From a bacterium (GTDB lineage Bacteria; Hydrothermota; DG-26; JAUXAN01), in NCBI GenBank assembly GCA_030619885.1, contig JAUXAN010000014.1, positions 1-51,806 of the forward strand: a stretch of 51,806 bases of DNA. Direction: 5' to 3'. Position 1 is the first letter of the stretch. Each line of letters begins with the position of its first letter. Under the pieces are notes generated by a model. That model was not told the origin of the DNA, did no database searches, and worked only from the letters and a program-made list of their open reading frames with translations. Below, one piece after another: positions 2,000-29,759 of the stretch. Position numbers and translations under genes: made by a program.

Positions 2000-2156
2000 T
2001 ATATTCATCTCAATGTAAATCTGAACGGTATCGTTATCCCCTCCTCTACAGGCTCCCCATCCCACCATTTCACATCTTTTCTCAGATAGTAAGTGACTTC
2101 TTAAGTCGGCAGAATATTCCCATGATGAGGCGAGTTCTGGGACAACCTTGAGATTT

Positions 2157-2681
2157 TTAAGATTGGGGGAGTACTTCCTTCAGAGTTTCGAATTTATCTT
2201 CAAACTCTTTTTTGAGATCTCCTGGAAGCAGGTTCGTCACATACTCCATTATATGCAAAACAGGGATAGCGAAGGCAGACCCTTTCAGCCAATCACTACC
2301 CTTTGGAATGAATGTGAGAATGACCAAACAGATAATGCCGAATATCAATATCCCTTTTAAAAGACCAAACAACCCACCGATGGTTCTATTTATCCAGTTC
2401 AGTTTAACGAACTTAACCAATCTCTCGATAAAAATACCAACGGTAATTATAGTGGCAGCTATTGCTATAAAAATGACGACAAAACTTGTGATTGTGGATG
2501 CCGTCTTATTATGAAGAATGGGAAGCAGTGCTTGAGCAAATTTAGCATATCCTACACCTGCCAGGACCAGTCCTGCAACGATTCCAACTATACTAAAAAT
2601 CTCTCTTACGAATCCTTTTATTATACTGTATATCATACTGAGTCCAACTATTACAAGAAAGATATAGTCTATAGTATTCAA
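2157..2681 (-). CDS. cvpA: CvpA family membrane protein
   Basis: A 174-residue integral membrane protein with four hydrophobic segments (about residues 6-26, 28-48, 62-84 and 104-126) and the typical N-terminus MNTIDYIFLVIVGLSMIYSI, all hallmarks of the CvpA (colicin V production) family. CvpA proteins sit in the inner membrane; family members have been linked to envelope homeostasis, but the biochemical role is unsettled. The start is a TTG codon 15 nt beyond the 3' end of the selenocysteine tRNA on the same strand. No promoter lies between them, so selC and cvpA are probably one transcript from the promoter at 2798-2825. Confidence 0.85.
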   Translation of the reverse strand: MNTIDYIFLVIVGLSMIYSIIKGFVREIFSIVGIVAGLVLAGVGYAKFAQALLPILHNKTASTITSFVVIFIAIAATIITVGIFIERLVKFVKLNWINRTIGGLFGLLKGILIFGIICLVILTFIPKGSDWLKGSAFAIPVLHIMEYVTNLLPGDLKKEFEDKFETLKEVLPQS

Positions 2682-2696
2682 TTCTTCACACCCTTC

Positions 2697-2791
2697 TGGC
2701 GGGAATGTGTAGGAATCGAACCTACCATCCTGATTTCTCGGGATTACTGGATTTGAAGTCCAGAGGGGTCACCAGATCCCCATCCATTCCC
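2697..2791 (-). tRNA. selC: Selenocysteine tRNA, anticodon TCA
   Basis: A 95-nt tRNA read on the minus strand. The acceptor GGGAATG pairs with CATTCCC, followed by discriminator G and an encoded CCA. The D-arm has GGGG/CCCC around TCTGGTGA. The anticodon arm CTGGACTTCAAATCCAG is the same as in E. coli tRNA-Sec as I recall it and presents TCA, which reads UGA. A long variable arm (TAATCCCGAGAAATCAGGAT) and the T-arm GTAGGTTCGATTCCTAC follow. It would be charged with serine, converted by SelA, and delivered by SelB to in-frame UGA codons. No selA, selB, selD or clear selenoprotein is in this window. Confidence 0.93.
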
Positions 2792-2797
2792 TCTATT

Positions 2798-2825
2798 ATT
2801 GTAAACCATAATCTTGTGATGTCAA
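2798..2825 (-). promoter_or_regulatory. selC promoter with start site at tRNA base 1
   Basis: On the minus strand TTGACA (2820-2825), a 16-nt spacer and TACAAT (2798-2803). Six nucleotides separate the -10 box from tRNA position 1 at 2791. Predicted transcription start therefore coincides with the mature 5' end, leaving no leader for RNase P to remove. Confidence 0.65.
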
Positions 2826-3119
2826 GAAAAAAAATAACCGCAGAGAACGCAAAGTTCACAGAGAAAAAAAACAGAATAAAAAATAATTAAAAAAGAGAAA
2901 GACATTGGGCTCGGATCTTGACAAAGTTGACATTTTTCAGACGGATTCTGTCGTACAGCTCTGTGAGGGGATATGGGAGGACACAGAGATTGTGAAGAAT
3001 AAAATTGAATCTCTTCCACAGGATCCGTATGGACTGTGTGCTCTTTGATGTCTTTGTGACTCCGTACTTTTTTCCGTGCCTATCCGTGTCAACATCAGTG
3101 GTACTCGATGTCTTTTTAC
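2826..3119. other. Intergenic region with dispersed repeat fragments
   Basis: No gene is supported. It holds fragments of repeats found elsewhere: CCGCAGAGAACGCAAAGTTC (about 2839-2858) and the CCGTGTCAACATC/GTGGTACTC block (about 3083-3107) also seen near position 30. It separates the divergent selC-cvpA and 3156 transcripts. Confidence 0.5.
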
Positions 3120-3148
3120 TTGACTTGATAAGAGATTTTATTTATTCT
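3120..3148 (+). promoter_or_regulatory. Promoter of the 3156 operon, leaderless type
   Basis: TTGACT at 3120-3125, a 17-nt spacer, TATTCT at 3143-3148, then 7 nt to the ATG at 3156. There is no Shine-Dalgarno sequence; the bases just before the start (CTTTATAAA) resemble those before the leader ORF at 41999. Confidence 0.6.
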
Positions 3149-3155
3149 TTATAAA

Positions 3156-4892
3156 ATGAAAAAAACGATTCTTCTGTTCTTTACCCTCTTCCTCATCGTT
3201 TATGTGGGGTGCAAGAAGAAAGGCGAGGAAGAACATCTACGAAAAAAGGTAGATGTTCCATCTCCTGTGAAAGTATATAAAGAAGATTTTGCCGGACTTT
3301 TTGGGTATGGACTGACTCACGATGGCCTGGTTCTGGTATCTTTAAAAGATAATAAACCATTGATAAAGATCTTTCTTGCTTTGGGTATGAAAGAGGTAGT
3401 AAAAAATGAGAAACACCTCTATGCTATCTCTTCGAATGAGAGAAAACTATTTTATGTAGATTTCAGGAAGGGGGAAAAAGTAAAAGAGATTTCACTGAAT
3501 GGGACACCAGTTCATATAATAAAAGACCCCAAAGATGGACTTTATATTTTGTTAAAAGATGGAAGAATATTGAAGATAGACGAAGATGGAAAACAGAGCG
3601 AAGTCATCTCTGTCACGCAGGATTTAGAACTCGAAGTTCTCGAAAAGGGTCTCATCTCACCGAGAGGAGATAAGATCTATGCACTAACTAAATTTAAGAA
3701 TAGAAACTTGCTCAAGGTAGTAGATATTCAAAAGAAAAAAGTGGAGAGAGAGACAATCTGTGATGAAGTAGCCGATTTTTTACTCACCCCTTTTGGAGAG
3801 AGAATATATCTTTTATTAAAAAATAGAGTTATATCACTCGACTCAAAAAATTTGGAAAAGATAGCAGAAATAAGTCTATCCGGGGTGTGCAGAAAATTTG
3901 TGAGTAACCCTGGGGGAGAAAAGATATATTGTCTTCAGACAAGACCAACCGCAATATCTGTTATTGACCGAGCACAGAATAGAGTTATGTATGAACTTTT
4001 GACTCAGGGTATACCCGAAGATATTGTATTTTCGAGAGATGGCACACATGCGTACATTATTCAGCGGACTATCGATGCACTCATATTCCTCGATGCCACA
4101 GTTGACAGTGCCTATGGAACGATTGGTCTACCACACGAGCCAAGGCGAATTTTTCTATCCCCCAAAGAAACGACACTATGGATTATCGACAAAAATATAT
4201 CAGTGGTCAATGTGGCAAGGAAAGAAATTACAGATTCCATTACTGTATCTGCCTCAATCTCTAATTTTATCCTGTGCGAAAGGGATACCATAACGATTCA
4301 ATCATCGTACATAGATACTACAGATAAAAAACCCGACACCCTCCGGGTGCTACCTCATAAAACGGAGATTGAATGCTATACAATTCAGGTTAGTTCATGT
4401 AAAGATAGGACGATAGCGGAGAAGGTCGCTTCAAAAATATTGTCGTTAGGTTATCCATCATATATCTTCACATTGCCAGAATCAGACTGGAACAGGGTAA
4501 GGGTGGGTGCATTCAAAAACTCGAAAGATGCAGAAATGATAAGTGGTAAGATAGACCGCAACCTTAATACTTCCTCGTGGATACTAAAAGCGACTATCTC
4601 TCCTTCCACTCTACCACGTATCCCTTCAGCGGGTAGAGATGTGAATGGTGATGGTTGCCCGGAGGAGATTGTCCGGCAGGGAAATAAAATATTGCTCTAT
4701 ACGATAAAGGATGGAGTCTACAGTAAATTGTGGGAGACATCTGGAGAGAGAAAAGTTTACCGTAGCACTTCAGTCTTCTATGATACGGATAAAGATGGAA
4801 CAGAAGAAATCCTCACGCCAGTAGAGGGGGGAGAGTATTCGATTATCAGTTGGGATGGAAAAAATTTTAGAGAAATATTTTCTACAAGATGA
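3156..4892 (+). CDS. Lipoprotein with beta-propeller-like, SPOR and Ca-binding-like repeat regions
   Basis: A 578-residue exported protein. Residues 1-19 form a lipoprotein-type signal ending in VGC, with Cys19 as probable lipid anchor. Residues about 40-390 show repeating beta-strand blades (for example HGLYILLKDGRI-like units and SRDGTHAYII) as in YVTN-type propellers. Residues about 405-480 match a SPOR domain, which binds denuded peptidoglycan (YTIQVSS, ASKILSLGYPSY, RVRVGAF). The C-terminus has two acidic repeats, DVNGDGCPEE and DTDKDGTEE, like FG-GAP or EF-hand-type calcium loops. It probably works at the cell wall or outer membrane. It leads an operon and overlaps ricT by 4 nt (ATGA). 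The exact role is unknown. Confidence 0.8.
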   Translation: MKKTILLFFTLFLIVYVGCKKKGEEEHLRKKVDVPSPVKVYKEDFAGLFGYGLTHDGLVLVSLKDNKPLIKIFLALGMKEVVKNEKHLYAISSNERKLFYVDFRKGEKVKEISLNGTPVHIIKDPKDGLYILLKDGRILKIDEDGKQSEVISVTQDLELEVLEKGLISPRGDKIYALTKFKNRNLLKVVDIQKKKVERETICDEVADFLLTPFGERIYLLLKNRVISLDSKNLEKIAEISLSGVCRKFVSNPGGEKIYCLQTRPTAISVIDRAQNRVMYELLTQGIPEDIVFSRDGTHAYIIQRTIDALIFLDATVDSAYGTIGLPHEPRRIFLSPKETTLWIIDKNISVVNVARKEITDSITVSASISNFILCERDTITIQSSYIDTTDKKPDTLRVLPHKTEIECYTIQVSSCKDRTIAEKVASKILSLGYPSYIFTLPESDWNRVRVGAFKNSKDAEMISGKIDRNLNTSSWILKATISPSTLPRIPSAGRDVNGDGCPEEIVRQGNKILLYTIKDGVYSKLWETSGERKVYRSTSVFYDTDKDGTEEILTPVEGGEYSIISWDGKNFREIFSTR

Positions 4893-5665
4893 ACGAAGTT
4901 ATATTTAGAAATTGGGAAAAGGGTCATTTTAAAGAACCCAATGGTATTGATATAAAAGTGGGTGATTGTGTTATCTGTAAGCTATCAAAAGGCGAAAAAA
5001 TAGGTGAGGTAGTAAGAACAGAGACAGCTGCCAAAAGAAGCAAAGGGGAAATCCTTAGAAGATGCACTGAAGCCGATATCAAAATATTTGAAGAGAATAA
5101 AAAATTTGAAGAGAGAGTCTATTCGGAATGTAAAAAAGGACTGAAAGAAATCGCCCAACCAATCAAACTTGCTTTTGTAGAATATCAGTTTGATCATCGT
5201 AAATTAACCTTCTATTTCACTGCTGCCAAGAGAATCAATTTTAAATCCATCGTGGAATACCTTTCAAAGAAGTATTCAATGAATATTGGAGTACATCAAA
5301 TAGGCGTGAGGGAGCATGCAAGACTGCACGGCGGATTGGGCCCCTGCGGGAGGGATCTATGCTGCAGAACTTTTTTGTCCAACTTTCAACCCGTCTCTAT
5401 TCGTACTGTTAAAGAACAGAACCTTTCTTTATCTATGTTGAAGATGGCAGGGGCGTGTGGAAGACTCGCCTGCTGCCTGGCGTTTGAAAGAGATTATTAT
5501 GTAGAAGAACTAAAAAAATATCCTCCGATTGGAACACCCGTTACTACAGAGAGAGGAAAAGGAGTAGTATCGACGATAGATATATTCAAGGAAAGGATAT
5601 TCATCAAGTACGAAGATGGGATTGAAGAGGGAATCAGCAAGGATGGGGTAAAAATAGGAGGATGA
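4889..5665 (+). CDS. ricT: PSP1/RicT family protein
   Basis: A 258-residue PSP1-domain protein of the RicT (YaaT) type. In Bacillus, RicT forms a complex with RicA and RicF that binds [4Fe-4S] clusters and controls RNase Y processing and phosphorelay. The diagnostic cysteine clusters are CGRDLCC (near residue 152) and CGRLACCLAFE (near 189), with GGLGPCGRD upstream of the first. The gene overlaps the previous one by ATGA and shares ATGA with metG downstream. Proximity of ricT and metG is common in bacteria and supports the call. RicA and RicF partners are not in view. Confidence 0.9.
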   Translation: MNEVIFRNWEKGHFKEPNGIDIKVGDCVICKLSKGEKIGEVVRTETAAKRSKGEILRRCTEADIKIFEENKKFEERVYSECKKGLKEIAQPIKLAFVEYQFDHRKLTFYFTAAKRINFKSIVEYLSKKYSMNIGVHQIGVREHARLHGGLGPCGRDLCCRTFLSNFQPVSIRTVKEQNLSLSMLKMAGACGRLACCLAFERDYYVEELKKYPPIGTPVTTERGKGVVSTIDIFKERIFIKYEDGIEEGISKDGVKIGG

Positions 5666-7329
5666 GATTACTGGTTACATCTGCACTCCCCTATGCAAAT
5701 GGGGATATACATCTTGGACATTTAGCAGGCGCTTACCTGCCAGCCGACATATACACTCGATACCATAGATTGAAAGGAGATGATATAATACACATCTGCG
5801 GCTCTGATGAGCATGGTGTTCCCGTTACCATCACCGCCGAACAGGTCGGTATTTCACCAGAGGTATTCACGACTAAATATTATAAGAGAATGGCTGAAAG
5901 TTTTAAGAAATTCGGAATAATCTTCGATAACTTCTCCCGTACTTCATACCCTCTCCACCATAAGACTGCACAGGATTTCTTTACAAGGATTTATGAAGCC
6001 GGCGATATTAAACCAAAAACTGTTGAACAGTTCTACTGCACAAAATGTAAGAGATTTCTTGCAGATAGATATGTGGAGGGTATCTGTCCTTACTGCAGGA
6101 GTCCCAATGCGAGGGGCGACCAGTGCGAAGCATGTGGAAAATGGCTTGAGCCTACTATTTTAATCGAGCCTAAATGCAAAATCTGTGGTGGGAATCCGAT
6201 GATTAAACGAACAAAACACTGGTTCTTCAATCTATCCAGTTATCAGAAGAAACTGGAGGGGTGGATTGGTGGAAAGAAACATTGGAAGTCGAATGTGATT
6301 ATGTTCTGCAGCGGTCTATTTCGCGAAGGGTTGAAAGAGAGGCCGATAACGAGAGACCTTAACTGGGGTGTTAGTGTTCCCATTGCAGAAGCAAAAGGAA
6401 AGGTAATATATGTCTGGTTCGAAGCACTCATAGGTTACATCTCGTCAACAAAAGAATGGGCAGAGAAGAAGGGGGATGCTAATCTGTGGAGGGATTATTG
6501 GCAAAATGAAGAGACCAAACTTGTTCAGTTTTTGGCGAAGGACAATATAGTCTTTCACGCAATCGTATGGCCAGCAATGCTTTTGGCTCATAAGGATTAT
6601 ATCCTCCCATCTGAAATTCCTGCAAACGAATTTTTGAATATAGAAGGCGAAAAATTGTCCACCTCAAGAAACTGGGCAGTGTGGCTGCCAGAATATTTAA
6701 ATGATTTTGAACCGGATCCCTTGCGGTATACACTCGCTGTAAATAATCCCGAAACTAAAGATTCAGATTTCACCTGGAAAGATTTTCAAGTTCGGAATAA
6801 TAATGAACTGGCTGATATCCTCGGAAATTTTATAAATCGCACCTTCACTTTCGTAATTAAATACTTCGACAGCAGGATACCCCCATCTCATAAATTGGAT
6901 GAAGAGGATAAGAAGTTTTTTAAAAAAATCGAGGTGTTACCAAAAACAGTAGGTGAGTTGATAGATAGATTTGAATTCAAAAAGGGGTTAAAGGAAATTA
7001 TGTCACTTGCAGGTGAAGGGAATAGGTATTTCGATTACAAAAGACCCTGGGAAACGAGGAAGAACGATGTTGAAGTAAGTGAAAAGACTATCGCACTGTG
7101 CTGCAGTTTGATAGCCACACTTGGAACAGTTCTTGAACCATACCTTCCTTTTTCTGCTAAAAAGATTCGAGAATCTCTTGGTATTGAGAAAAGTGTATGG
7201 AAAAATTCAGCGGATAATAAACTGACGGGAAAGAATGTGCGAAATCCTGGTATATTATTCAAAAAGATAGAGGATGAAGAGATCGAAAAGCAGGTTACTA
7301 AATTAAAAGAGATGAGAGCTGATGCATAA
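5662..7329 (+). CDS. metG: Methionyl-tRNA synthetase
   Basis: Class I aminoacyl-tRNA synthetase of 555 residues that attaches methionine to initiator and elongator tRNA-Met in the cytoplasm. The HIGH signature is HLGH at residues 17-20, following TSALPYANGDI. The KMSKS loop is the variant KLSTS near residue 331. A connective-peptide insertion carries four CxxC-type pairs (CTKC, CPYC, CEAC, CKIC), the four-cysteine-pair zinc form. The C-terminus is the helical anticodon-binding domain; the extra EMAP/tRNA-binding dimerisation domain found in longer MetRS is absent. The start overlaps ricT (ATGA), indicating coupled translation. Confidence 0.95.
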   Translation: MRLLVTSALPYANGDIHLGHLAGAYLPADIYTRYHRLKGDDIIHICGSDEHGVPVTITAEQVGISPEVFTTKYYKRMAESFKKFGIIFDNFSRTSYPLHHKTAQDFFTRIYEAGDIKPKTVEQFYCTKCKRFLADRYVEGICPYCRSPNARGDQCEACGKWLEPTILIEPKCKICGGNPMIKRTKHWFFNLSSYQKKLEGWIGGKKHWKSNVIMFCSGLFREGLKERPITRDLNWGVSVPIAEAKGKVIYVWFEALIGYISSTKEWAEKKGDANLWRDYWQNEETKLVQFLAKDNIVFHAIVWPAMLLAHKDYILPSEIPANEFLNIEGEKLSTSRNWAVWLPEYLNDFEPDPLRYTLAVNNPETKDSDFTWKDFQVRNNNELADILGNFINRTFTFVIKYFDSRIPPSHKLDEEDKKFFKKIEVLPKTVGELIDRFEFKKGLKEIMSLAGEGNRYFDYKRPWETRKNDVEVSEKTIALCCSLIATLGTVLEPYLPFSAKKIRESLGIEKSVWKNSADNKLTGKNVRNPGILFKKIEDEEIEKQVTKLKEMRADA

Positions 7330-7372
7330 GAGCGGGGTGAATGAAAAATTCGTGTTTATACTTTCATTATAG

Positions 7373-8344
7373 ATGAACAGAAAGTGTGTTCTATTATACT
7401 CGGGTGGGCTCGACAGCATCCTTGCCTGTAAAATCCTTTCAGAACAGGGTATAAAGATATTTGCAATAAATTTCACTACCCCATTTTTACCCAAAGCAGA
7501 TCTTCCCCCTGTTGAATTTCCTCTAAAAGTTATCAACATCGGTGAGGAATATTTAGAATTGGTCAAAAATCCAAGATATGGATATGGAAAGAATTTAAAC
7601 CCTTGCATAGACTGCAAGATAGCTATGTTTGAACGGGCTAAAGAATATATGGACGAAATAGGGGCATCGTTCATCGCTACAGGCGAAGTAGTGGGCGAGC
7701 GCCCAATGTCACAGAGAAAAGATGCGTTGAATATAATAGATAGAGATTCCGAAATGAGAGGAATTGTCGTAAGACCTTTATCGGCTAAACTATTGAAACC
7801 TACCATCCCAGAAGTGGAGGGGATTATAGATAGGAAGAAACTATTGGATATATCAGGGAGGTCGAGAAAACCTCAATTAGAGTTAGCAAAGAAATATGGA
7901 TTAAAGGACTATCCAACACCCTCTGGAGGTTGTCTTTTGACCGACCCCATATTTTCAAAAAGGATAAAGGATACAATGGATAATGATGAGTTCTCAATAG
8001 AGAAGATTTACCTTCTGAGATATGGCAGACATTTCAGGCTGAACGACGGGTGCAAGGTAGTTGTGGGAAGAAACGAAATCGAAAACAATATGCTTTTAAA
8101 CCTCTGTGCAAGAGATGACTATATTTTTCGAGTTGTAGATTATGTAGGTCCTGTAGTCATATTACTCTTTTCTACATCTATTAAAGATTCGACTATTTGC
8201 ACTGCCGCATCCTTAACAGCAAGTTACAGCAAAGGTAAAAATGAGAAGGAAATAAAGGTGGTTTTTGGAAAGAGGGGAAAAGAAAAAAAGACAATCTTTG
8301 CTAAAAAAATGGAGAGAGATAAGATAAAAGAATATATGATATAA
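7373..8344 (+). CDS. ThiI/MnmA-like tRNA thiolation enzyme
   Basis: A 323-residue protein with an adenine-nucleotide alpha-hydrolase fold: the PP-loop YSGGLDS is at residues 9-15, with a CIDCK motif near 77 and PSGGCLLTD near 182. These features fit the ThiI/MnmA-like family that adenylates tRNA uridine and transfers sulfur. The C-terminal part (from about residue 225) looks like the NFACT-R-type RNA-binding segment (VVVGRNEIENN) that accompanies this subgroup. It lies 43 nt downstream of metG, probably in the same operon, and a TATACT sequence 10 nt before the ATG could allow a second start. Substrate position on tRNA cannot be told from sequence. Confidence 0.75.
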   Translation: MNRKCVLLYSGGLDSILACKILSEQGIKIFAINFTTPFLPKADLPPVEFPLKVINIGEEYLELVKNPRYGYGKNLNPCIDCKIAMFERAKEYMDEIGASFIATGEVVGERPMSQRKDALNIIDRDSEMRGIVVRPLSAKLLKPTIPEVEGIIDRKKLLDISGRSRKPQLELAKKYGLKDYPTPSGGCLLTDPIFSKRIKDTMDNDEFSIEKIYLLRYGRHFRLNDGCKVVVGRNEIENNMLLNLCARDDYIFRVVDYVGPVVILLFSTSIKDSTICTAASLTASYSKGKNEKEIKVVFGKRGKEKKTIFAKKMERDKIKEYMI

Positions 8345-8524
8345 AGCCAAATAATGCGTGAATCCAAGAAATCCCAATGTTACCAAATCCAAAATTCAAA
8401 GTAAATCCCAATTTCCAAATCCCAAAGTTTGCTAGTATTTTAATTTGGGGTTTCTTTACGCACAATCTGGTATAAGAGGTCAAATGTCAAGCACCATTCC
8501 CGGGTTTTGTTTAAAACATTCTCT
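8345..8524. other. Convergent intergenic region with weak hairpin
   Basis: No gene. Stem AAATCCCAAA (8417-8426) with TTTGGGGTTT (8444-8453) is followed by a short T-rich stretch and may act as a weak terminator between the convergent genes. Near 8482 is the repeat phrase AAATGTCAAGCACC, also found near 11288 and, in diverged form, near 50814. Confidence 0.4.
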
Positions 8525-8926
8525 TCAAGTCAGCCAATTTTCAATTTTTAGCCTTTGAATTCTATCGAAATCACTGTCATCCGATACGAGAACAAAGTCC
8601 CGTACTTTTACTGAAGAAGCTATCAAAATATCTGCGTCTTCAATCAGGTCTCCTTTTTTCTGCAAATTTGCATATATCTCTGCGGCTTCATTAAAGACAG
8701 ATTTAGTATCTAACAATAACAACCCAAATTTTTTACAAAGTAGTTCAAATTTTTCTAACTGCGCTGTAGCACTCTTTGCTAAAAGACCTCGTTTTATTTC
8801 ATAATAACTGATGCCGTTTATAAAAATCTCTTCTCCCTCTAATATGACTTCTTGGATTTTCTTCTTTACTCTCTCATTACCCTTTAAGATTGCTGTAATA
8901 ATATTTGTATCAAGCATATATGTCAT
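8525..8926 (-). CDS. VapC-like PIN-domain toxin
   Basis: A 133-residue PIN-domain ribonuclease. Acidic metal-binding positions are visible: Asp6 in MLDTN, Glu in YYEIKRG, Asp in EDADILIA, and SDDSDFDRI near the C-terminus. VapC toxins cut tRNA or rRNA and are held by a cognate antitoxin. The start overlaps the upstream small gene by 4 nt, the usual antitoxin-then-toxin arrangement. The operon also contains the DUF4209/HEPN gene, so VapC may be part of a larger defence-type unit. The RNA target is unknown. Confidence 0.85.
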   Translation of the reverse strand: MTYMLDTNIITAILKGNERVKKKIQEVILEGEEIFINGISYYEIKRGLLAKSATAQLEKFELLCKKFGLLLLDTKSVFNEAAEIYANLQKKGDLIEDADILIASSVKVRDFVLVSDDSDFDRIQRLKIENWLT

Positions 8927-9264
8927 TTGAAAAAAGGCCTCCTCTTGACCGCTTTTTCAAAAGCCTCTCTTTGTTCAGGAGTTAATTCGTTCAACATACC
9001 AAAGACAGCCTCAAGGGCATTGAGTTTTTCTGATATTTTTTTCATTCTCTCCCAATCTCGCACCTCAAAGATTTGGAGAGGCAAAGGATGTACTTTTATT
9101 TCTTTCACATATTCTGAATTTTCAAATGATTCTATTTCTTTATTCTCTTTCAGAAATTTAGAAGGTTTACTAAGTTCTTCGTGCTCTTCACAAGGGTCTT
9201 TTTGAGGTTTTATAAAAAGGTCATATTTTCTTTCTACAGTTAGTGACTCGGTTATTAACTCCAT
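8923..9264 (-). CDS. Putative antitoxin partner of the VapC-like toxin
   Basis: A 113-residue charged protein with no family I recognise. It is inferred to be an antitoxin from position: it sits directly before the PIN toxin with a 4-nt overlap, and its Glu/Lys-rich C-terminus (TPEQREAFEKAVKRRPFFK) could wrap the toxin. The N-terminus does not show a clear AbrB, RHH or Phd motif. Its Shine-Dalgarno sequence (GGAGG) lies inside the last codons of the DUF4209 gene, so translation is coupled to that gene. Confidence 0.6.
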   Translation of the reverse strand: MELITESLTVERKYDLFIKPQKDPCEEHEELSKPSKFLKENKEIESFENSEYVKEIKVHPLPLQIFEVRDWERMKKISEKLNALEAVFGMLNELTPEQREAFEKAVKRRPFFK

Positions 9265-9265
9265 A

Positions 9266-11086
9266 TTAATCCTCCTTTTTTGATTTACTATCAGTTAAAG
9301 TAAAACGGGTAAGTATTAAAAAAAGGTGGAATACTGTATCAGCAAGTTCACGAGTACAGGAAGCCTTACTCAAAAGTCCATGTGCTACAATATTTCTCAG
9401 GTTACATCCTGTTTTTTCTGTCATTACAACACTTATATAAGTAGTTAAATCATCTCCAAGAATATCTTTTACTTCTGGTTGAGATAAATAACTTCCGAAT
9501 GTCTTTTCTTCAAAGCCGCCTGCATAAAATCTGGTAATATCAGCCCCGCCTCTTGCCAATAAACGCCTTAGAAAACTTTCAAATTGTGGAACAAGTATAT
9601 GGAGTGCACTAACATAGTCTTCATTAAAATAGGACTCGAAACCGACTTCTATTACACTCAAATTTTCTGGATCCATAAGTCCCCATGTTGCAAAATATTC
9701 CATTAATGATTCAGTATCAAGTCCTTTTTTAGCACGTAGACGGTCTATCACTTCTTTAAGAATCAAAGTAGTTTGAATATTTATGTAAAATAAAATATGA
9801 CGATTCAATGACCATCTGAATTTATCTTTTTCTCCTTTAATATCAGCAACTTTTAAATCATCAGCAATTGGAGTAGTGGATACAAGATGCCTGATAGACC
9901 CCTTTATTTCTTTTTCTACTTCCTTCTCAGCTTTAGCAACATTGGGAACAAGGGTTGGATGGTTAGCTAAAAGCTTTAGGGAATCGTAAAGAGAAGATTG
10001 ATTAACAAAATAATTACAAATCTCGTTAATTTTTTTCTTGGGGACTCCAATAGTTGCTTCTATCTTTTTAAATTCACCGCTCTCCTTCGCTTTTTTGTAT
10101 GCCTTTCGGATTTCTGCTTTTAATTCTTTGAATTTTTTCTCCTCACCTATATTCATATACTCGCGCATTGCGAGCTCAAGGAAATGTGCGCGAAGTAAAA
10201 AACTGGGGGGTTTTGTTTCAGTATGAAATTCTGCCTCTTCCTCAAAAGATCGTGCAAATTCGAGGCGTGCATTCTGTATACCTGTGTCATTTTTCCTTAA
10301 CCGATCAAGATTGACAATTATTTTTAGTGTTTCTCTCCGAAGATGAAGATTTTTTTTATCTTTAAAGGAAGTTTGTATAATATACAATATTTTTTTAAAC
10401 TTATCTAATAAAGAATTTGAAATTAAATTTCCAAGTTTACTCCCTTTAATCAAAAATAAGATTTCAACCAGGTCAAGGACATAGCGCTCCTTATTTTGTT
10501 TCTGAAGAAGATCAATAATTCCTTCTATCGTTGGTATAATTTTAGTTAACTTTGGCTTCAAATTAAACGATAAACAACCTGCTACTGCACGATGATAGCA
10601 ATCAGTCAATAGAAGTTCCGCTCCTTCCACAGTTTCACAGAGTTTTGCGAGTTCTAAATGAGAATCAACTACACCATCAGCAATTTTTAGTCTCTTATCC
10701 TCAGAAGCATTCTCCCAATATTCAAACAAAATATCAAAATATCGCGCTTTTAGAACAGGGTTTTTTGATTCCTGCGCTCTTTCGAAATAATAATTGAAAG
10801 CCTCATCGGTAATCTGGCCGGGGTCGGGATATTTACCCTTGCTCGTTTCAATCAGAGGAACAAATCGGGTATTAGGTTTATAAAGAACACCCCATTGGGC
10901 ATGAAGGTCGAAAGCTAACCTGTCCCACTGACATTTAGTTAATCTTTCAGTGTCTCCGGCTTCCTTCAGCAGGTTATAGACCTGGCTTAATTTATCTCCG
11001 ATTTTGGCATAAACAGTATCGGAAGGTTCAATATCCTCGATATCCGCCAAGATTTTTAATGCCTTCTCTCTTTTATTGTCCTGCAT
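9266..11086 (-). CDS. DUF4209-domain protein with HEPN-type motif
   Basis: A 606-residue, helix-rich protein. The C-terminal part (about residues 470-600) matches the DUF4209 pattern: GFESYFNEDYVSALHILVPQ followed later by NLRNIVAHGLL. The RNIVAH segment (about 564-569) has the R-x4-H spacing of HEPN ribonucleases or their nucleotidyltransferase-linked relatives. The N-terminal two thirds are alpha-helical and resemble a TPR-like scaffold. From memory, DUF4209 proteins are frequent in defence islands; catalytic activity is not proven here. It leads an operon with an antitoxin and VapC. The promoter at 11096-11123 would leave only a 2-3-nt leader. Confidence 0.7.
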   Translation of the reverse strand: MQDNKREKALKILADIEDIEPSDTVYAKIGDKLSQVYNLLKEAGDTERLTKCQWDRLAFDLHAQWGVLYKPNTRFVPLIETSKGKYPDPGQITDEAFNYYFERAQESKNPVLKARYFDILFEYWENASEDKRLKIADGVVDSHLELAKLCETVEGAELLLTDCYHRAVAGCLSFNLKPKLTKIIPTIEGIIDLLQKQNKERYVLDLVEILFLIKGSKLGNLISNSLLDKFKKILYIIQTSFKDKKNLHLRRETLKIIVNLDRLRKNDTGIQNARLEFARSFEEEAEFHTETKPPSFLLRAHFLELAMREYMNIGEEKKFKELKAEIRKAYKKAKESGEFKKIEATIGVPKKKINEICNYFVNQSSLYDSLKLLANHPTLVPNVAKAEKEVEKEIKGSIRHLVSTTPIADDLKVADIKGEKDKFRWSLNRHILFYINIQTTLILKEVIDRLRAKKGLDTESLMEYFATWGLMDPENLSVIEVGFESYFNEDYVSALHILVPQFESFLRRLLARGGADITRFYAGGFEEKTFGSYLSQPEVKDILGDDLTTYISVVMTEKTGCNLRNIVAHGLLSKASCTRELADTVFHLFLILTRFTLTDSKSKKED

Positions 11087-11095
11087 ACTTCTATT

Positions 11096-11123
11096 AAGAT
11101 ATACAAAGAAAGATGAATGTCAA
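11096..11123 (-). promoter_or_regulatory. Promoter of the DUF4209-vapC operon
   Basis: Minus strand TTGACA (11118-11123), 16-nt spacer, TATCTT (11096-11101), then 9 nt to the ATG. Predicted leader is 2-3 nt with no Shine-Dalgarno site. Confidence 0.55.
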
Positions 11124-11488
11124 TAAAAATATGTTTTAATGTATAAATGGAAACACACTCTAATTTTTACGAATGGTGTGAAGGATTTGCGAAAATTTTT
11201 TCTTGATGGAGTGTATCCAAGCGGGCTCTTGTAATATACATCCGAGTCTGCAACCTTGTGTGCATCTGGGATAAAATGTCAAATTGTCAAGCACCGTCCC
11301 CGAATTTTCAAGTTCGCCTGTCATTGCGAAAGCACCGCAGGTGCTCGTGGCAATCTCATTTTTTATATTTCAATCCCACCCCAAGGGTGGGATTTTGTAA
11401 TCATTAAGATTCAATGATTTCCGAAAACCGTCCCCAATGGATTTTTAAAGATTTGAGGGTATGGAAAGGTTCTTGTTGGATGTTTTAA
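11124..11488. other. Repeat-rich intergenic region
   Basis: No gene is seen. In order it holds TGTCAAGCACCGTCCCC (about 11286-11302), a CATTGCGAAAGCACCGCAGG/TGCTCGTGGCAATCTCAT palindrome (about 11323-11359), the REP palindrome at 11372-11394, and ATTCAATGATTTCCGAAAAC followed by CGTCCCC (about 11409-11436). That last block is the reverse complement of a block at about 50090-50116 near the REP transposase. Convergence of several repeat families marks this as a recombination-prone junction between two accessory operons. Confidence 0.5.
11372..11394. repeat. REP palindrome
   Basis: Arms AATCCCACCC and GGGTGGGATT separated by 3 nt. The same palindrome, with a CCCCAGGGG centre, occurs three times around the REP-associated transposase at the right end of the window. 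Confidence 0.75.
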
Positions 11489-12793
11489 TCAGAAATGTCT
11501 ACCCCGTTTGACTATTCTCCGCACTTCCTCGATGTTGAGGATTTTCTCTGTACTTTCTATAAAATTACGGTAACTTATTTCGTCTTTCTTCCAATGATAT
11601 CTGAACACCCCCTTATCAAGAGTCAAGGATATATCCTTTCCTTTCGGCAAACCTGCCTTCTCAATCTGATCTTCTTGAAAATATGGACGTTCCCAGCTGT
11701 GAATTTCGTCAGATAGAATTAACAGGAACGCAAGTGGAGCATCTTTGATCTTGAAAGTAAAGTTATTTAAACACTGCAACCTGTGTTTTTTTCTTTGCCA
11801 ATCGGACAAGATGTTATTTCTTACATGATGAATCGCAATGGGTGGGATTGCCAATTTCATAAATCCGAGTTGGTCATTAAAATTCTGCTCAAAACTCCTG
11901 TGAATGTTCCCTGCTCTGTTCAAGAGTATCATGTAAAGTTTATAATAAGCATAAGACAGTTTATAGAGCAAAGCAGCGCTCAGAATTCCATGATCATAAT
12001 ATTCCTTCCTTCTCCCGTTTCTTGCATTTTCATTTCCTTTCTTTCTCAAAGCATCATAATAAGACTTTACTGCAAACTGAGAGAGATTAATCTTTTGCTC
12101 GAAATCTCCTATTATTGACCATATTCCACTGTTTTCGGGGGTAAGAGCATCTACAGGACTGATGCCGCCGTGAGAAGTGGAATTCAATAGTGGAGTCCAT
12201 GTTTCCTCGGCAGTTTTTTTGAATGTGTCTTCACTGATGTAATTTCCCAACAAGTTTTCGAGAGAAAAAGAGTACGGGGTATGTTCTATCCAAGATGCAC
12301 GGGTTTCGAAGATAGAATCGAGATCTCGCGCACTTTCGTACATATACTTTTTCAACTTCCCTACAAAGATATAACCTATATCATGAAATAGAGAAGCATA
12401 AAGCCATGTTTTTAAAAATCTATCCTGATTTTGATCAAGTCCGCTTTTCTTTAGTTCCCTTTGGAAGAAAGAAGAATATTGGGAAATATACAGTCCTATC
12501 AGAAAAACATAGAGAGAATGGCAGAAGTGATCTCGATATTCTGTGAGTCTTAGACCTATTTGCATCTCAATCATTCTTTCAAGAGGAGAGGAATCCAATA
12601 ATAATGAGTTATTTTTTACAATTTGTTTGATAGCAGTCTTAGCATTTGAACATTTATCTGAGATGTCTTCTGTTTCAAGGAAAATCTCAAGTGGTCTATT
12701 AGAGAGTTGCCCTTTTGCAATGTGTAATTTTTCTAGTAAGGGACAAGAACTATTAATGAAGATAGAGAGTTGTTCATCAATACATTCACGCAT
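11489..12793 (-). CDS. HD-domain phosphohydrolase in a PLD-HD pair
   Basis: A 434-residue protein of the HD metal-dependent phosphohydrolase superfamily. Motifs in order: DHFCHSLYVF near residue 88 (first His), FHDIGYIF near 136 (His-Asp pair), YDHGILSAALL near 275, and AIHHVRNN near 325. This order fits HD/PDEase-type enzymes acting on nucleotides or cyclic nucleotides, but no specific substrate is indicated. It starts 6 nt after the stop of the 1146-residue PLD-like gene, so the two are one operon and probably one system. A role in anti-phage defence is inference from the island context. Confidence 0.7.
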   Translation of the reverse strand: MRECIDEQLSIFINSSCPLLEKLHIAKGQLSNRPLEIFLETEDISDKCSNAKTAIKQIVKNNSLLLDSSPLERMIEMQIGLRLTEYRDHFCHSLYVFLIGLYISQYSSFFQRELKKSGLDQNQDRFLKTWLYASLFHDIGYIFVGKLKKYMYESARDLDSIFETRASWIEHTPYSFSLENLLGNYISEDTFKKTAEETWTPLLNSTSHGGISPVDALTPENSGIWSIIGDFEQKINLSQFAVKSYYDALRKKGNENARNGRRKEYYDHGILSAALLYKLSYAYYKLYMILLNRAGNIHRSFEQNFNDQLGFMKLAIPPIAIHHVRNNILSDWQRKKHRLQCLNNFTFKIKDAPLAFLLILSDEIHSWERPYFQEDQIEKAGLPKGKDISLTLDKGVFRYHWKKDEISYRNFIESTEKILNIEEVRRIVKRGRHF

Positions 12794-12799
12794 TTCAGA

Positions 12800-15700
12800 T
12801 TAAGAGACATTTTTCAGCAACTCTGCAAGATCAGGTAATTTTGCTTCCTTTAGGCGTTTAATTAAAAATTCTTCTTCTCCTTTTTGTTTTGCTTGTTTTA
12901 CACGGTATGGAAAATCTGGAGATTCAACTACTTTTTTGAGCATTTGTTTGTTATTTTCGGGGGTCTTTTCCCCTTGTGCCAGAAGACGAATTATGTGCGA
13001 GATATCGAGTAAAGTAGGGAGAGTCTCTTCAATATATTTACAGTAATCTTCTTTCTCAATTACTGAGAAAGTTTGACCAAGAATGGTAAAAAAGAGTGCG
13101 AAAATACCTGCGTTTGGTCCTAATTCTTCCGAGATATTATTAATAGAAAATTTATTCTTCTCTATTCCTAAAGTGTCATACTGAACTCGCCATTCTAGAT
13201 CTTTTGCGTAACAAAGATATTTTTCCCATATATTTTTAATGAGAGTTCTTGCTTCTTTTATGTTGATCCCCGATAATTCAATGCCAAGAAATAACCCAAA
13301 AATTGAGGCGTAAATATAATATTGAAATGCTTTATACCATCTATCATACTTGAGGTTATACCACTGCTCGTCCATGTCTTTTTCTATTGAATTTACCAAG
13401 ATATTCTCCCAGAACCACTGAGGAACTTCCTTCTTAAGTAGATCATAAATTGCTTGAGATACGATAAGAAGATAATTTATTTCCTCAACAGGGTCAAGTA
13501 TTATTAGATAGGCTTCTCGAGACAAAGAAATCCTTTCTTTAAAATGGTTAGCAATTTCTCTGGATATAAGGAGAGCAGATTCTTGATTTTTATTCTTGTA
13601 AAACTGCCGTTTAAGCTTATCTGCAAAGGTTATTAATGCAATATCTCTCTTGGAAGTTTTTAATGCTTCCAAAAATGTTAGGAGAAACAATTGGCCTTTT
13701 TTCTGTGAGAATACATGATCAATTAAATACTCAATGATGATATTCTCAAATTTTTGATATATCTTTTTAACCTGCAAGAAGTTTGTTTGTTTAGAAAGAG
13801 TGGATTTGAAAAAAATTAATTTATCCAAAAACAGCTCCCAAAAGGTTACTTTTTGTTCTGTTGGTTCCGTAAGTAGAGTTGTGAGCAACCATTTTAGATC
13901 TTGTTCCCCTTTTTCCTGAATTTTAGATTCGTCATTATTTATGTCTTCCGCTCTTAAGAAACGGAAACTCCTGGGATTTACTTTATCCATAGTCCTTGAG
14001 CAGCAATACTCTGCGGCTGCGCCCCATACTAAAATTGAAGCACTGCGGAGAAAAATTTCTAGTTCATTGATTTCTTTATTGCGTTTCATAACTACAAAGT
14101 AATAGGTAAGCAGGTAAGGGTTAGGATATTTCTCAAAGAATTCTAGAACTTTGCTCTGAGAGAAGTGAGAGATAAGCAATAGAAGAACTTGAACCTTGTG
14201 GTCAAGAGAGTGCATGTAAGAAGCAAATCTCTCAATCGATTCTATGATGTCCCATACTTCCTTTAATCTTTGAGCTTCTTTATATCTTTTATCTAACTGC
14301 TGGTATCCCTCTTTCTCTTTCTCGATATATCCAGACGCCCATTCCTCTCGTCTTATTAGTTCCTCCAATAACGCAAACGAAATAGTTTCTAGCTGTTTCC
14401 TTATTTTTTCTTTTTCTAAAATTCTGGGGAGATACTCTTGATATTCGGTAGTCTGATGGTATGTCCAATTCAGAAACGCTGTAAGGTTGCGTTTGGCTTC
14501 TCTAATCGAACATTGAGTATGAGAAATCTGCATTAACATTTCTTCTACAACTCTTTTTTGCCAATTCTTCTCTTGGGAAAATGTAGGACAATTTCTTTCA
14601 TTTTTAATCAATAGACCTTTGGAAATTGCCTCTTTGATAAGTTTATTTTTATTGGTAGAGCCAAGTCCAATGGTAATTTGAATAACTCTTTCCCATCCTG
14701 CAAATTGAGTTTTTCTTTCCCTTTTGCCCTTTACGAGTTTCTTCTCAATAGGAAAGAGGTCAATTATTTTGTAAGATTTTGGTGCTCCCTTTCCAGCGGG
14801 ATGTAATACCATGCCATTCCATATTCGTTCAAAATCATTTTTCAAGTCCTCATAATATGGAAATTGAACGATGCCAGTATATGATTCGCCAATAGCATCG
14901 AGAGAGTTCCCAAGCATCCATGCTCGGTCTTTAGTAATGATGAATCTGTCATGAAATGCCCGGTTTCCTCCTTTAGTAAGAATATTACGACATTCCAAAT
15001 CGAGATTTAGTTTTTTCTGTAGTCTTTTTAGAGATTCTTTAAGTTTGTTCCTTCGTTCGTCTTTATCTAAAGAAGTCATTATCCGAATCTTGAGTGGTGA
15101 GACACATTGTATAAATGGAAGCAACCATTCTGCTGAAGTTATATCGAAGAAAGGATCCCATATGTAGATATATTCCTCTGTATGGTTTTGTATTAGGTTT
15201 CGCACTGCCTCTCTTGCTTGTTCTATTCTGTTGGAATGAAAATAAAAATTCAGCTGAGGAGTTTTTTCTCCTGTCCTATAAATTCTCTGGAGTTCTACCC
15301 ATGGGTCATCTTTAAAGCTTCCTGATATGATTTTAGTAGAGCTATATCTATCGAATACTCTGTTTTTGATAACAACACGGTCGCTCAATGCCTGCATATC
15401 TACTATTATTTGTCGCACTAGTGTGAAATTCTCCCTGTAAATACATTGCCCTTTGTAAGGACCCTCAAGAGGCGTCAAAGTTATTATCCCCTCACTCGCA
15501 GGCTCATGATATGTAACTTCGATAAAACGTTTGTCTTTAGGAACTACTTCGGAGTAAGCACAAATAACCTCTTCTCCATTTCTAATATTAATCGATACAA
15601 TGTAATCCCATCGATGATCTGGGGATCTATCAATTTCAAATAATCTGTAGTACTTATTTGGTATTTGTCTCACTCTAACAACATTGTAGGGATAGAAAAG

Positions 15701-16240
15701 AAGAATATTGCCCACTCTTTCGTTGAATCGCAGGAGATCTGGACCATAGCCTCTTTTGACGCATTCCAGAACTTTTTTTATGTTAACCGAAAGTTTTCTG
15801 CTTACATAAGCTTCTTTTATTTCATCAAAGACCTCTTTTTCTTTTTCCCACCACTCCTCCAGAGCACAGGAATAATCTCTTACAGGATCAAGTCCTGTTA
15901 TGTGAACTGGCAGAAACACAAGGGGTCTTTTTATGAGTGAAGGTGTTTTTAAGATTACATTTCTGGAGGTAGTACAAAGTTTTATTTCATGGTTTTGTAT
16001 GCCTTTGTCTATAATATTGCTAAGGTTATTTAGAGGAAGAATTCGAGTGAATCTAACAACTTTATTTTTCTTCTCACCTTCTTCCCATTGGTTTTGAGGT
16101 TTTCCCATCTTTATAGGGATGCCACGACCTGCCAAATTATAACAGAGCTCTTTTTTGAATTCAAACCCATAAAAGGCCATAAAGAAAAGAGAATCAGGGG
16201 AAATATGTGGTTTAATCACTGTATTTGATATTCCTTTCAT
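12800..16240 (-). CDS. Large PLD-like protein, VPA1262-type motifs
   Basis: A 1146-residue protein. Around residues 355-460 it has a phospholipase-D-like half: YIWDPFFD (near 358), AFHDRFII (near 426, with Arg in place of the usual Lys of the HxK motif), and MLGNSLDAIG (near 440). The HDRF...WMLGNSLDxIG pattern is the one I associate with VPA1262-type proteins. The N-terminal 350 residues are beta-rich and unassigned; the C-terminal 650 are helical and contain no recognised motif. PLD relatives in defence systems act as nucleases. It is translated directly before the HD protein. The start lacks a clear promoter or ribosome site: TTGACC about 90 nt upstream has only a poor -10. Confidence 0.65.
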   Translation of the reverse strand: MKGISNTVIKPHISPDSLFFMAFYGFEFKKELCYNLAGRGIPIKMGKPQNQWEEGEKKNKVVRFTRILPLNNLSNIIDKGIQNHEIKLCTTSRNVILKTPSLIKRPLVFLPVHITGLDPVRDYSCALEEWWEKEKEVFDEIKEAYVSRKLSVNIKKVLECVKRGYGPDLLRFNERVGNILLFYPYNVVRVRQIPNKYYRLFEIDRSPDHRWDYIVSINIRNGEEVICAYSEVVPKDKRFIEVTYHEPASEGIITLTPLEGPYKGQCIYRENFTLVRQIIVDMQALSDRVVIKNRVFDRYSSTKIISGSFKDDPWVELQRIYRTGEKTPQLNFYFHSNRIEQAREAVRNLIQNHTEEYIYIWDPFFDITSAEWLLPFIQCVSPLKIRIMTSLDKDERRNKLKESLKRLQKKLNLDLECRNILTKGGNRAFHDRFIITKDRAWMLGNSLDAIGESYTGIVQFPYYEDLKNDFERIWNGMVLHPAGKGAPKSYKIIDLFPIEKKLVKGKRERKTQFAGWERVIQITIGLGSTNKNKLIKEAISKGLLIKNERNCPTFSQEKNWQKRVVEEMLMQISHTQCSIREAKRNLTAFLNWTYHQTTEYQEYLPRILEKEKIRKQLETISFALLEELIRREEWASGYIEKEKEGYQQLDKRYKEAQRLKEVWDIIESIERFASYMHSLDHKVQVLLLLISHFSQSKVLEFFEKYPNPYLLTYYFVVMKRNKEINELEIFLRSASILVWGAAAEYCCSRTMDKVNPRSFRFLRAEDINNDESKIQEKGEQDLKWLLTTLLTEPTEQKVTFWELFLDKLIFFKSTLSKQTNFLQVKKIYQKFENIIIEYLIDHVFSQKKGQLFLLTFLEALKTSKRDIALITFADKLKRQFYKNKNQESALLISREIANHFKERISLSREAYLIILDPVEEINYLLIVSQAIYDLLKKEVPQWFWENILVNSIEKDMDEQWYNLKYDRWYKAFQYYIYASIFGLFLGIELSGINIKEARTLIKNIWEKYLCYAKDLEWRVQYDTLGIEKNKFSINNISEELGPNAGIFALFFTILGQTFSVIEKEDYCKYIEETLPTLLDISHIIRLLAQGEKTPENNKQMLKKVVESPDFPYRVKQAKQKGEEEFLIKRLKEAKLPDLAELLKNVS

Positions 16241-16465: not shown

Positions 16466-18196
16466 TCAAAAAATAACCGCTTTCCCTGTTTTTCTCTGAT
16501 AAGATGATTGCAATTTGTAAAAATAAATTCCTTTTGTTTCAGGTTTGAAAGGAATCTTGTAAGAGCCAGATAAATATTCACCTGACACAGGTATAGCAAT
16601 AACTCGCCCTGCTACATCGTAAATCTTTAAAGAAATCCTACTTTTTTCAGGAAGAGAAAATTTGAAAAGAATCTTTCCTTTTGCAGGAGAATTAACTGAG
16701 AAAGAAAATCTATCAATATCAGACTTTGTAAAAGATTCTTCTACACCAACGGTATTTGCAACAAAAGAATAATAGTTTGCAGGTGCACCAAGTGGGTCCG
16801 TAGATTCATTTGCAGGCTGAAGTACATCCCTTGCGTAGATATAATATTTTACGGTATCATCTAGTAAAAAAACCTGAGGTATTTCTCCGTAATACCAGTT
16901 GTTTGTACTATCTGACATTTCAGTGGAAAACCATGGAGGATCTTCTGTTCTTTTGAAATAGAGAATAACAGTATCAATAACACTAATGTCTGTAACCTTG
17001 GTATAAACAGGGAAAGGACCAATATAACTTGAATCACACCAAACGGTTGTGGAATCAATTAGCGGTGGAGATGCGTCAATATAAATAGTCCAAATTTGGT
17101 TGGATTGGGTTGTATCATCGAAACTATCATTAGCAACAACATACCAGTTATGAAAACCATCTGACAAATCATAATCTGCTGTCCAGATGGTGCCAAGAAT
17201 ACTGGCTCTTGATGTATCATCAATAAAAACTTCGTAATTCTTTATTCCTGCAGGGGTATTTAAAGATTCCCATATAAAGGTTGGCCTTGTTGTAGAGAGC
17301 ATCGAGGAATCTGAGGGAGAAATTAAGTTAAAGGGAGGGATATTTTTGATCGTCCTTATAAGCCAAACATCAACCCCACTTGCACCGAACGATTCTGTTC
17401 CTCCTGCAATGATATATCCACCATCTGAGGTCTGTTGAACTGAATAGCCTTTATCATAGAGCGTATCTCCGTAAGTCTGTGTCCAGAGGGGATATCCATT
17501 TGAATCTGTCTTTACAAGCCAAACATCACAGTTACCCGCACCGAACGACCATGTCTCTCCTACAACAATGTATCCGCCATCAGAGGTTTGTTGAACTGAC
17601 CAACCTTCATCATCATTTGTCCCTCCATATGTCTGTGTCCAAGGGAAATATCCAAGTGAATCTGTCTTTATTAGATAAACATCCTTACCACTTGCACTGA
17701 ACGATTCTGTTCCTCCTGTAATGATATATCCACCATCAGTGGTCTGTTGAACTGAACGGCCTGCTTCATCATTAGTTCCTCCATAAGTCTTTGTCCAGAG
17801 GGTATCACCAAGAGAATCTGTCTTTATAAGCCAAACATCACGCTTGCCTACACCGAACGAAGATGTATATCCTGCAACAATGTATCCACTATCTGAAGTC
17901 TGTTGAACTGAATAGCCTTCATCATTACTTGTATCTCCATAGGTCTTTGTCCAGAACGTATCACCGTGTGTATCTGTCTTTATTAGATAAACATCAGATT
18001 TACCTGCACCAAACGAATATGTAAATCCTGCAATGATGTATCCCCCATCGGAGGTCTGTTGAACAGCCCTACCTTCTTCATAACTTGCTCCTCCGTAAGT
18101 CTTTGTCCAGAGGGTGTCAGAAGTATGGGCAAACAGGTTAGCCACCCAGCAGAGCATTACCATTCCGATAAAAAGATTCGTAAATTGTCTTAACAT
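16466..18196 (-). CDS. Secreted repeat protein with Por/T9SS-like C-terminal sorting domain
   Basis: A 576-residue exported protein with a signal peptide (residues 1-24, ending near LFA). Five tandem units of about 51 residues follow (about 27-285), each reading roughly WTKTYGG..., EGxSVQQTSDGGYI, and SDVYLIKTDSLGD; such units are known in delta-60-like or propeller-type secreted proteins. A fibronectin/Ig-like middle region (about 290-480) leads to a FlgD-like C-terminal domain (from about 490) with SLKIYDVAGRVI and KGIYFYKLQ, the form used as a sorting signal by type IX secretion in Bacteroidetes and neighbours. It is probably displayed on or released from the cell surface. Near-identical units make it prone to repeat-number change. 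Confidence 0.8.
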   Translation of the reverse strand: MLRQFTNLFIGMVMLCWVANLFAHTSDTLWTKTYGGASYEEGRAVQQTSDGGYIIAGFTYSFGAGKSDVYLIKTDTHGDTFWTKTYGDTSNDEGYSVQQTSDSGYIVAGYTSSFGVGKRDVWLIKTDSLGDTLWTKTYGGTNDEAGRSVQQTTDGGYIITGGTESFSASGKDVYLIKTDSLGYFPWTQTYGGTNDDEGWSVQQTSDGGYIVVGETWSFGAGNCDVWLVKTDSNGYPLWTQTYGDTLYDKGYSVQQTSDGGYIIAGGTESFGASGVDVWLIRTIKNIPPFNLISPSDSSMLSTTRPTFIWESLNTPAGIKNYEVFIDDTSRASILGTIWTADYDLSDGFHNWYVVANDSFDDTTQSNQIWTIYIDASPPLIDSTTVWCDSSYIGPFPVYTKVTDISVIDTVILYFKRTEDPPWFSTEMSDSTNNWYYGEIPQVFLLDDTVKYYIYARDVLQPANESTDPLGAPANYYSFVANTVGVEESFTKSDIDRFSFSVNSPAKGKILFKFSLPEKSRISLKIYDVAGRVIAIPVSGEYLSGSYKIPFKPETKGIYFYKLQSSYQRKTGKAVIF

Positions 18197-29532: not shown

Positions 29533-29759
29533 TTTCCTTGACCCCTTGAATGAGATATAAAGTGTGGGGTCAGTCCCTACGGTCGCAGACCCGTATGGGA
29601 TCCGTATGGAAAAAATCTGACCATTAGCACCTCGTTTTACTCGGTACATAGCACCTCGTTTTACTCGGTACATAGCACCTCGTTTTACTCGGTACATAGC
29701 ACCTCGCTCCGCTCGGTGCATTCCGTACGGATCCAGAGATAGGTCGATTTTTCTTGACA
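29533..29759 (+). repeat. Copy B of promoter-carrying dispersed repeat
   Basis: TTGACCCCTTGAATGAGATA, GTGTGGGGTCAGTCCCTACGG, CGTATGG and CTGACCATTAG match copy C (41880-41970) in order. Copy B has about 115 nt of extra sequence (29628-29742), mostly a 24-nt tandem array, inserted between CCATTAG and GTCGATTTTTCTTGACA. It ends in the -35 box of pilT. Confidence 0.7.
29627..29722. repeat. 24-nt tandem repeat, four units
   Basis: Three identical units that begin GCACCTCGTTTTACTCGG and end TACATA, plus a fourth diverged unit (GCACCTCGCTCCGCTCGG). GCACC and GGTGC in the fourth unit can pair. Not a CRISPR array: units abut with no spacers. Confidence 0.9.

Follow-up and report, generated by a model that had tools for sequence, protein, structure and literature searches.

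The window (51,806 nt, the whole stretch of DNA analysed here) carries a gene for a 1146-aa protein with a PLD-like half, followed by a gene for a 434-aa protein with HD-type motifs (Table 1). An earlier note on this DNA had proposed the two as a candidate defence system. This raised two questions: whether each protein belongs to a defence-associated family, and whether the two form one system.

The gene pair and its surroundings

The two open reading frames were confirmed at the proposed spacing of 6 nt, on the same strand. In view of this short gap, the two genes are likely to share one transcript. Around them, promoter and terminator signals did not rise above chance. The region was also AT-rich as described, with GC contents of 35.3% and 36.8% for the PLD/HD region versus 39.0% for the window.

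The proposed bounding of the region by REP and other repeats did not hold. The exact pattern of the REP-like element at 11322–11357 recurs only once elsewhere in the 2.46-Mb genome, and with only two copies genome-wide a REP-bounded island was rejected. The other repeats near the two genes were weak and of the sort expected by chance. Elsewhere in the window, a 156-bp repeat occurs in about five copies inside a gene for a Por-secretion-tail protein (17352–18119), a 24-bp tandem repeat has 3.4 perfect copies at 29625–29721, and a tRNA-SeC gene is predicted on the minus strand at 2697–2791.

The pair adjoins a gene for a DUF4209 protein, which matched the PADLOC candidate PDC-S39, and a VapC-like PIN toxin gene with a probable antitoxin gene. 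PDC families are computational candidates, most of them without experimental validation (PMC12988326). The DUF4209 protein had a match in one other genome only, among 20 genomes sampled. Beyond these lie ordinary genes, including those for Met-tRNA synthetase, Thr-tRNA synthetase and sugar enzymes. We therefore interpreted positions 8525–16240 as a short run of defence-like genes amid ordinary ones.

Table 1. Features of the window and of loci that carry relatives of either protein
Sequence	Feature	Coordinates	Strand	Basis
Window	VPA1262-family PLD-like protein, 1146 aa	12800..16240	(-)	open reading frame; NF040700 match
Window	predicted half-PLD domain, residues 331–478	14807..15250	(-)	AlphaFold2 pLDDT mostly 60–84, strands and helices alternate; Foldseek
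Window	HDRF...W..GNSLDAIG motif, residues 430–451	14888..14953	(-)	alignment; K437 where 14 relatives have D
Window	predicted all-helical C-terminal region, residues 531–1146	12803..14650	(-)	AlphaFold2 secondary structure, low confidence
Window	HD-family protein, 434 aa, downstream of PLD gene	11489..12793	(-)	open reading frame; family alignments
Window	predicted metal-ligand set of HD protein: H89, H92, H137-D138, H268, H322, D362	11708..12529	(-)	alignment
Window	DUF4209 protein, PADLOC candidate PDC-S39	9266..11086	(-)	PADLOC E=4.9e-52; PF13910 E=2.9e-12
Window	VapC-like PIN toxin; probable antitoxin	8525–8926; 8923–9264	(-)	PF01850 E=4.3e-14; VapC models
L034	SIR2 and 888-aa gene directly upstream of A-B-C set	2015–9653		
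L039	MkoC-like SF1 helicase directly upstream of A-B-C set	3398–11029		
L044	KAP NTPase directly upstream of A-B-C set	3433–11187		
L026	SMC-like ATPase directly upstream of A-B-C set	3955–12197		
L052	YhcG-type nuclease directly upstream of VPA1262 gene			
L080	GAF-HATPase histidine kinase adjoins receiver-HD fusion	5519–9349		
L081	PAS histidine kinase as HD partner			
L066	ParA/MinD-like ATPase gene overlaps HD gene	5298–8706		
L083	ParA/MinD-like ATPase gene overlaps HD gene	7766–11499		
L082	1584-aa protein with PRTase domain adjoins receiver-HD fusion	7711–14127		
L067	PRTase-CE as HD partner			match below curated cut-off
L020	type I RM genes as HD partners			

The PLD-like protein

A Pfam scan of the 1146-aa protein gave no match. 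Residues 81–474 matched NCBIfam NF040700 (VPA1262_N_dom) with E=6.6e-34 and 117.5 bits, above the curated cut-off of 80. The earlier description, a PLD-type half with a helical C-terminus of unknown fold, was borne out for the PLD half and, at low confidence of the model, for the helical part, and has to be amended in that a named family exists. The HDRF and GNSLDAIG motifs on record for the protein were located at residues 430–433 and 444–451.

The AlphaFold2 model, built with 15 sequences, reached moderate confidence for residues 331–478 only. Foldseek matched this part with a probability of 1.00 to FAM83A (4urj), polyphosphate kinase (1xdo) and a Streptomyces PLD (1f0i); the E-values for PLD-fold chains were all >0.001, the best being about 0.003–0.04. 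It also matched TrmBL2, a DNA-binding protein. This suggested, with moderate confidence, that residues 331–478 adopt the PLD half-domain fold. The protein contains a single half-PLD domain with one HDR motif. Single-motif PLD nucleases work by pairing of two such half-domains.

Across 15 aligned PLD proteins of the family, His430, Asp431, Arg432, Phe433, Trp441, Gly444, Ser446 and Gly451 were invariant, and the HDRF/GxS and DP motifs were retained. Loss of the PLD motif in most relatives, which would have counted against a defence role, was thus not seen; all relatives aligned have kept it. The canonical HKD signature, HxKx4D, was not matched by the window sequence HDRFIITKD, in which R replaces K and the place of Asp is taken by K. 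The Asp at +7 of the HDRF motif is present in the other 14 proteins and is replaced by Lys437 in the window protein, with Asp438 beside it. This departure from the relatives suggested that the active site of the window PLD domain may be altered.

Searches of GTDB contigs with single-sequence patterns found no close relative of the whole protein. It is very probably an unusually long VPA1262-family member, nuclease-like and defence-associated.

Operons of the VPA1262 family

The type gene, VPA1262, sits in VPaI-6, a genomic island of 27 kb in Vibrio parahaemolyticus (PMC1464126). Scanning GTDB genomes yielded 22 named loci, and several more came from plasmids. The hosts included Gastranaerophilales, Pseudomonas, Magnetospirillum, Chromobacterium, Herbaspirillum, Gemmatimonadota, Myxococcus, Bacteroidota and others. 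The relatives were carried on islands and plasmids, with several loci on conjugative plasmids. The VPA1262 gene set and protein of Klebsiella gave no match in E. coli and phage collections.

Profile searches and gene tables revealed a recurrent operon order in about 20 other loci, namely A, usually B, then C. A is the VPA1262 PLD protein (about 490–600 aa), B is a second small protein with its own HDRF motif (about 190–230 aa), and C is a mostly helical protein (about 580–720 aa; 452 aa in Aliarcobacter). Some loci, such as those of Rhizobium and Bradyrhizobium, are without B. The genes directly upstream varied from locus to locus (Table 1). Avs1b lies near another locus (L042), and a SIR2 gene near a further one (L030).

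We interpreted the A-B-C set as apparently an unnamed modular defence operon behind varied sensor or effector genes. An operon with two HDRF half-PLD proteins in such a position makes a concrete, testable candidate defence effector. In the open-access literature searched, VPA1262 was named only in two papers, both on Vibrio parahaemolyticus, and was not described as a defence family. The family already has an NCBI profile.

In the window's own phylum, the VPA1262 domain scored over the cut-off in 2 of 147 genomes. The other of these genomes (G120) also encodes the protein as a single long chain (1184 aa), without an adjacent HD gene. Two further loci of the same phylum (L016:249–1091 and L017:6530–7567) carry a short HDRF half-PLD fused to other N-terminal domains, of which, by eye, one resembles RhuM and the other contains an HTH-like region.

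No B-like reading frame was found at 11–17 kb of the window, and a sensor ATPase gene upstream is likewise missing from it. In size and position, the helical tail of the 1146-aa protein matches the C proteins. Homology of the tail to C was not detected by hmmsearch, hhalign or phmmer; hmmsearch gave E-values of 0.03–0.09 in a 3-sequence search, and hhalign a probability of 0.1. Because sequence homology went undetected, an A-C fusion is an attractive guess, not a result. Overall, the window protein resembles an A protein lengthened by a helical tail of its own.

The HD protein and its partners

All 14 aligned family members share H92, H137, D138, H268, H322 and D362 of the HD protein, and H89 was present in 13. 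The earlier designation as an HD enzyme drew support from this metal-ligand pattern; in Pfam, the HD match stayed below the threshold (14.3 vs 22 bits). No Pfam or NCBIfam family scored over its cut-off, and there was no meaningful PDB match. Identification as Cas3'' (TIGR01596) was rejected, with 16.4 bits against a cut-off of 43.45.

The AlphaFold2 model had a pLDDT of 33, so that the HD fold was deduced from the motifs. On the expected ligand pattern, the protein would belong to an unnamed family of two-metal HD hydrolases, with both fold and hydrolysis predicted.

Profile searches found the family in 8 of 147 genomes of the window's phylum, in 5 of 396 of the phylum of a Bacteroidetes genome, and in 1 of 399 of the phylum of a Pseudomonas genome. 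Matches in the window's phylum at the level of single sequences were few and distant. No close match was found on plasmids.

The partners of the family changed from locus to locus and included histidine kinases, ATPases, PRTase proteins and type I RM genes (Table 1). The pairing of a ParA/MinD-like ATPase with HD recurs in two different phyla. Such a range of partners suggests an output hydrolase that is combined with different inputs. Nucleotide depletion, part of the logic proposed earlier, has no advantage over the other chemistries of HD enzymes. The family is genuine and, with its receiver-domain fusions and changing partners, a second uncharacterised output enzyme beside the VPA1262 proteins.

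Do the two proteins form one system?

The co-occurrence of the pair, proposed as a check, did not materialise. HD relatives were absent from the about 20 other VPA1262 loci, from the plasmids and from 13 VPA1262 genomes searched whole; VPA1262 genes were likewise absent from seven HD loci of other phyla. The same HD profile does detect HD genes where they are present, as in the phylum genomes above. The HD protein as a constant partner of VPA1262 was thus rejected. The pairing is therefore a single occurrence, seen once in the collections reached, which are incomplete and hold few close relatives of the window genome. Among the papers listed in literature searches, none was an obvious match to a pair of PLD and HD.

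What stood of the proposed defence system was the defence-type company and the patchy distribution of both families, and the neighbours of neither were conserved housekeeping genes. The company that they keep, with PDC-S39 and VapBC next door to the window pair, supports a defence association for both. It does not establish a system of PLD plus HD as such; with the pairing found in one genome only, the two make a promising candidate rather than a proven system. The 6-nt gap and the readiness of the HD family to change partners make one small phage-defence unit plausible, on the basis of one genome.

The reading that we prefer, and to which we give an even chance, is a small defence cluster in which a VPA1262 HDR-type half-PLD nuclease, fused to a helical scaffold or sensor, is co-transcribed with a two-metal HD hydrolase. 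The helical region would sense infection or bind a partner, and would keep the protein inactive. On a trigger, two half-PLD domains would pair and cleave nucleic acid through His430. Hydrolysis of a nucleotide or another phosphodiester-type substrate by the HD enzyme would provide a second output or a means of regulation, and the two proteins would act together. Weighing against this reading are the single occurrence of the pair, Lys437 in the PLD motif, and the lack of a B protein and of a sensor ATPase upstream.

The absence of HD from all other VPA1262 loci and from the 13 whole genomes also fits a self-contained VPA1262 defence protein, with the HD gene a hitch-hiker in the same island, co-transcribed yet uncoupled. 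The HD family has other partners elsewhere, and defence islands gather unrelated units, here PDC-S39 and VapBC. On the other hand, the gap is 6 nt on the same strand, and several HD relatives directly adjoin a large input-type gene, as in the window; we regard uncoupling as possible but doubtful. It is improbable, in our judgement, that the PLD domain has little or no catalytic activity and acts instead by binding nucleic acid or by dimerisation, with the HD enzyme as the effector under its control. His430, Arg432, Gly444 and Ser446 are invariant, and D438 adjoins the lost Asp position, which speaks against such a loss. In its favour, K437 replaces the conserved Asp at +7 and R432 the lysine of HKD, Foldseek matched the DNA-binding TrmBL2, and relatives of the HD protein occur as receiver-domain fusions and beside histidine kinases, as output domains do.

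Both superfamilies include housekeeping enzymes, and the two genes could in principle belong to ordinary lipid or nucleotide metabolism rather than defence. This is very unlikely in view of the patchy distribution of both families in the phylum, the plasmid carriage, the defence-type neighbours and the absence of conserved housekeeping neighbours.

If the nuclease and the HD enzyme are coupled as in the preferred reading, the pair would represent a defence architecture of a new kind, in which a VPA1262 HDR-PLD nuclease with a fused sensor scaffold is joined by an HD enzyme. The family of that enzyme would be a widespread and undescribed one of output enzymes, which elsewhere takes histidine kinases, ParA ATPases or PRTases as inputs. 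More broadly, the A-B-C set would be an unnamed modular split-PLD defence effector for SIR2, KAP, SF1 helicase and SMC-like ATPase sensors. We offer both proposals tentatively.

Comparison with known systems

PADLOC 2023 assigned neither protein to a named system; the hits to Cas9 (E=0.72) and Cas3-HD (E=0.002 at 16 bits) were insignificant. The PADLOC candidate PDC-S05 is PLD-type, and relatives in the VPA1262 family match its profile with their PLD domain, whereas the window protein itself gave no match at E≤1.

Mokosh (MkoA/MkoC) shares the PLD domain, and in one locus a MkoC-like SF1 helicase stands directly upstream of the VPA1262 gene (L039). It differs in that no helicase was found among the genes scanned around the window pair, and the match of the VPA1262 PLD to MkoC was marginal (E=0.009 for L008).

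The H..HD..H..H..D ligand pattern is like that of two-metal HD hydrolases, such as cyclic-nucleotide phosphodiesterases, HD-GYP and Cas3-HD proteins. The window HD protein is set apart from these by its scores, none of which passed a Pfam or NCBIfam cut-off.

The VPA1262 family (NF040700) matches the N-terminal and PLD region of the window protein, and its type gene also lies in an island. Its usual members have 490–600 aa and separate B and C proteins, whereas the window protein carries its tail in the same chain and has, without B, an HD gene instead.
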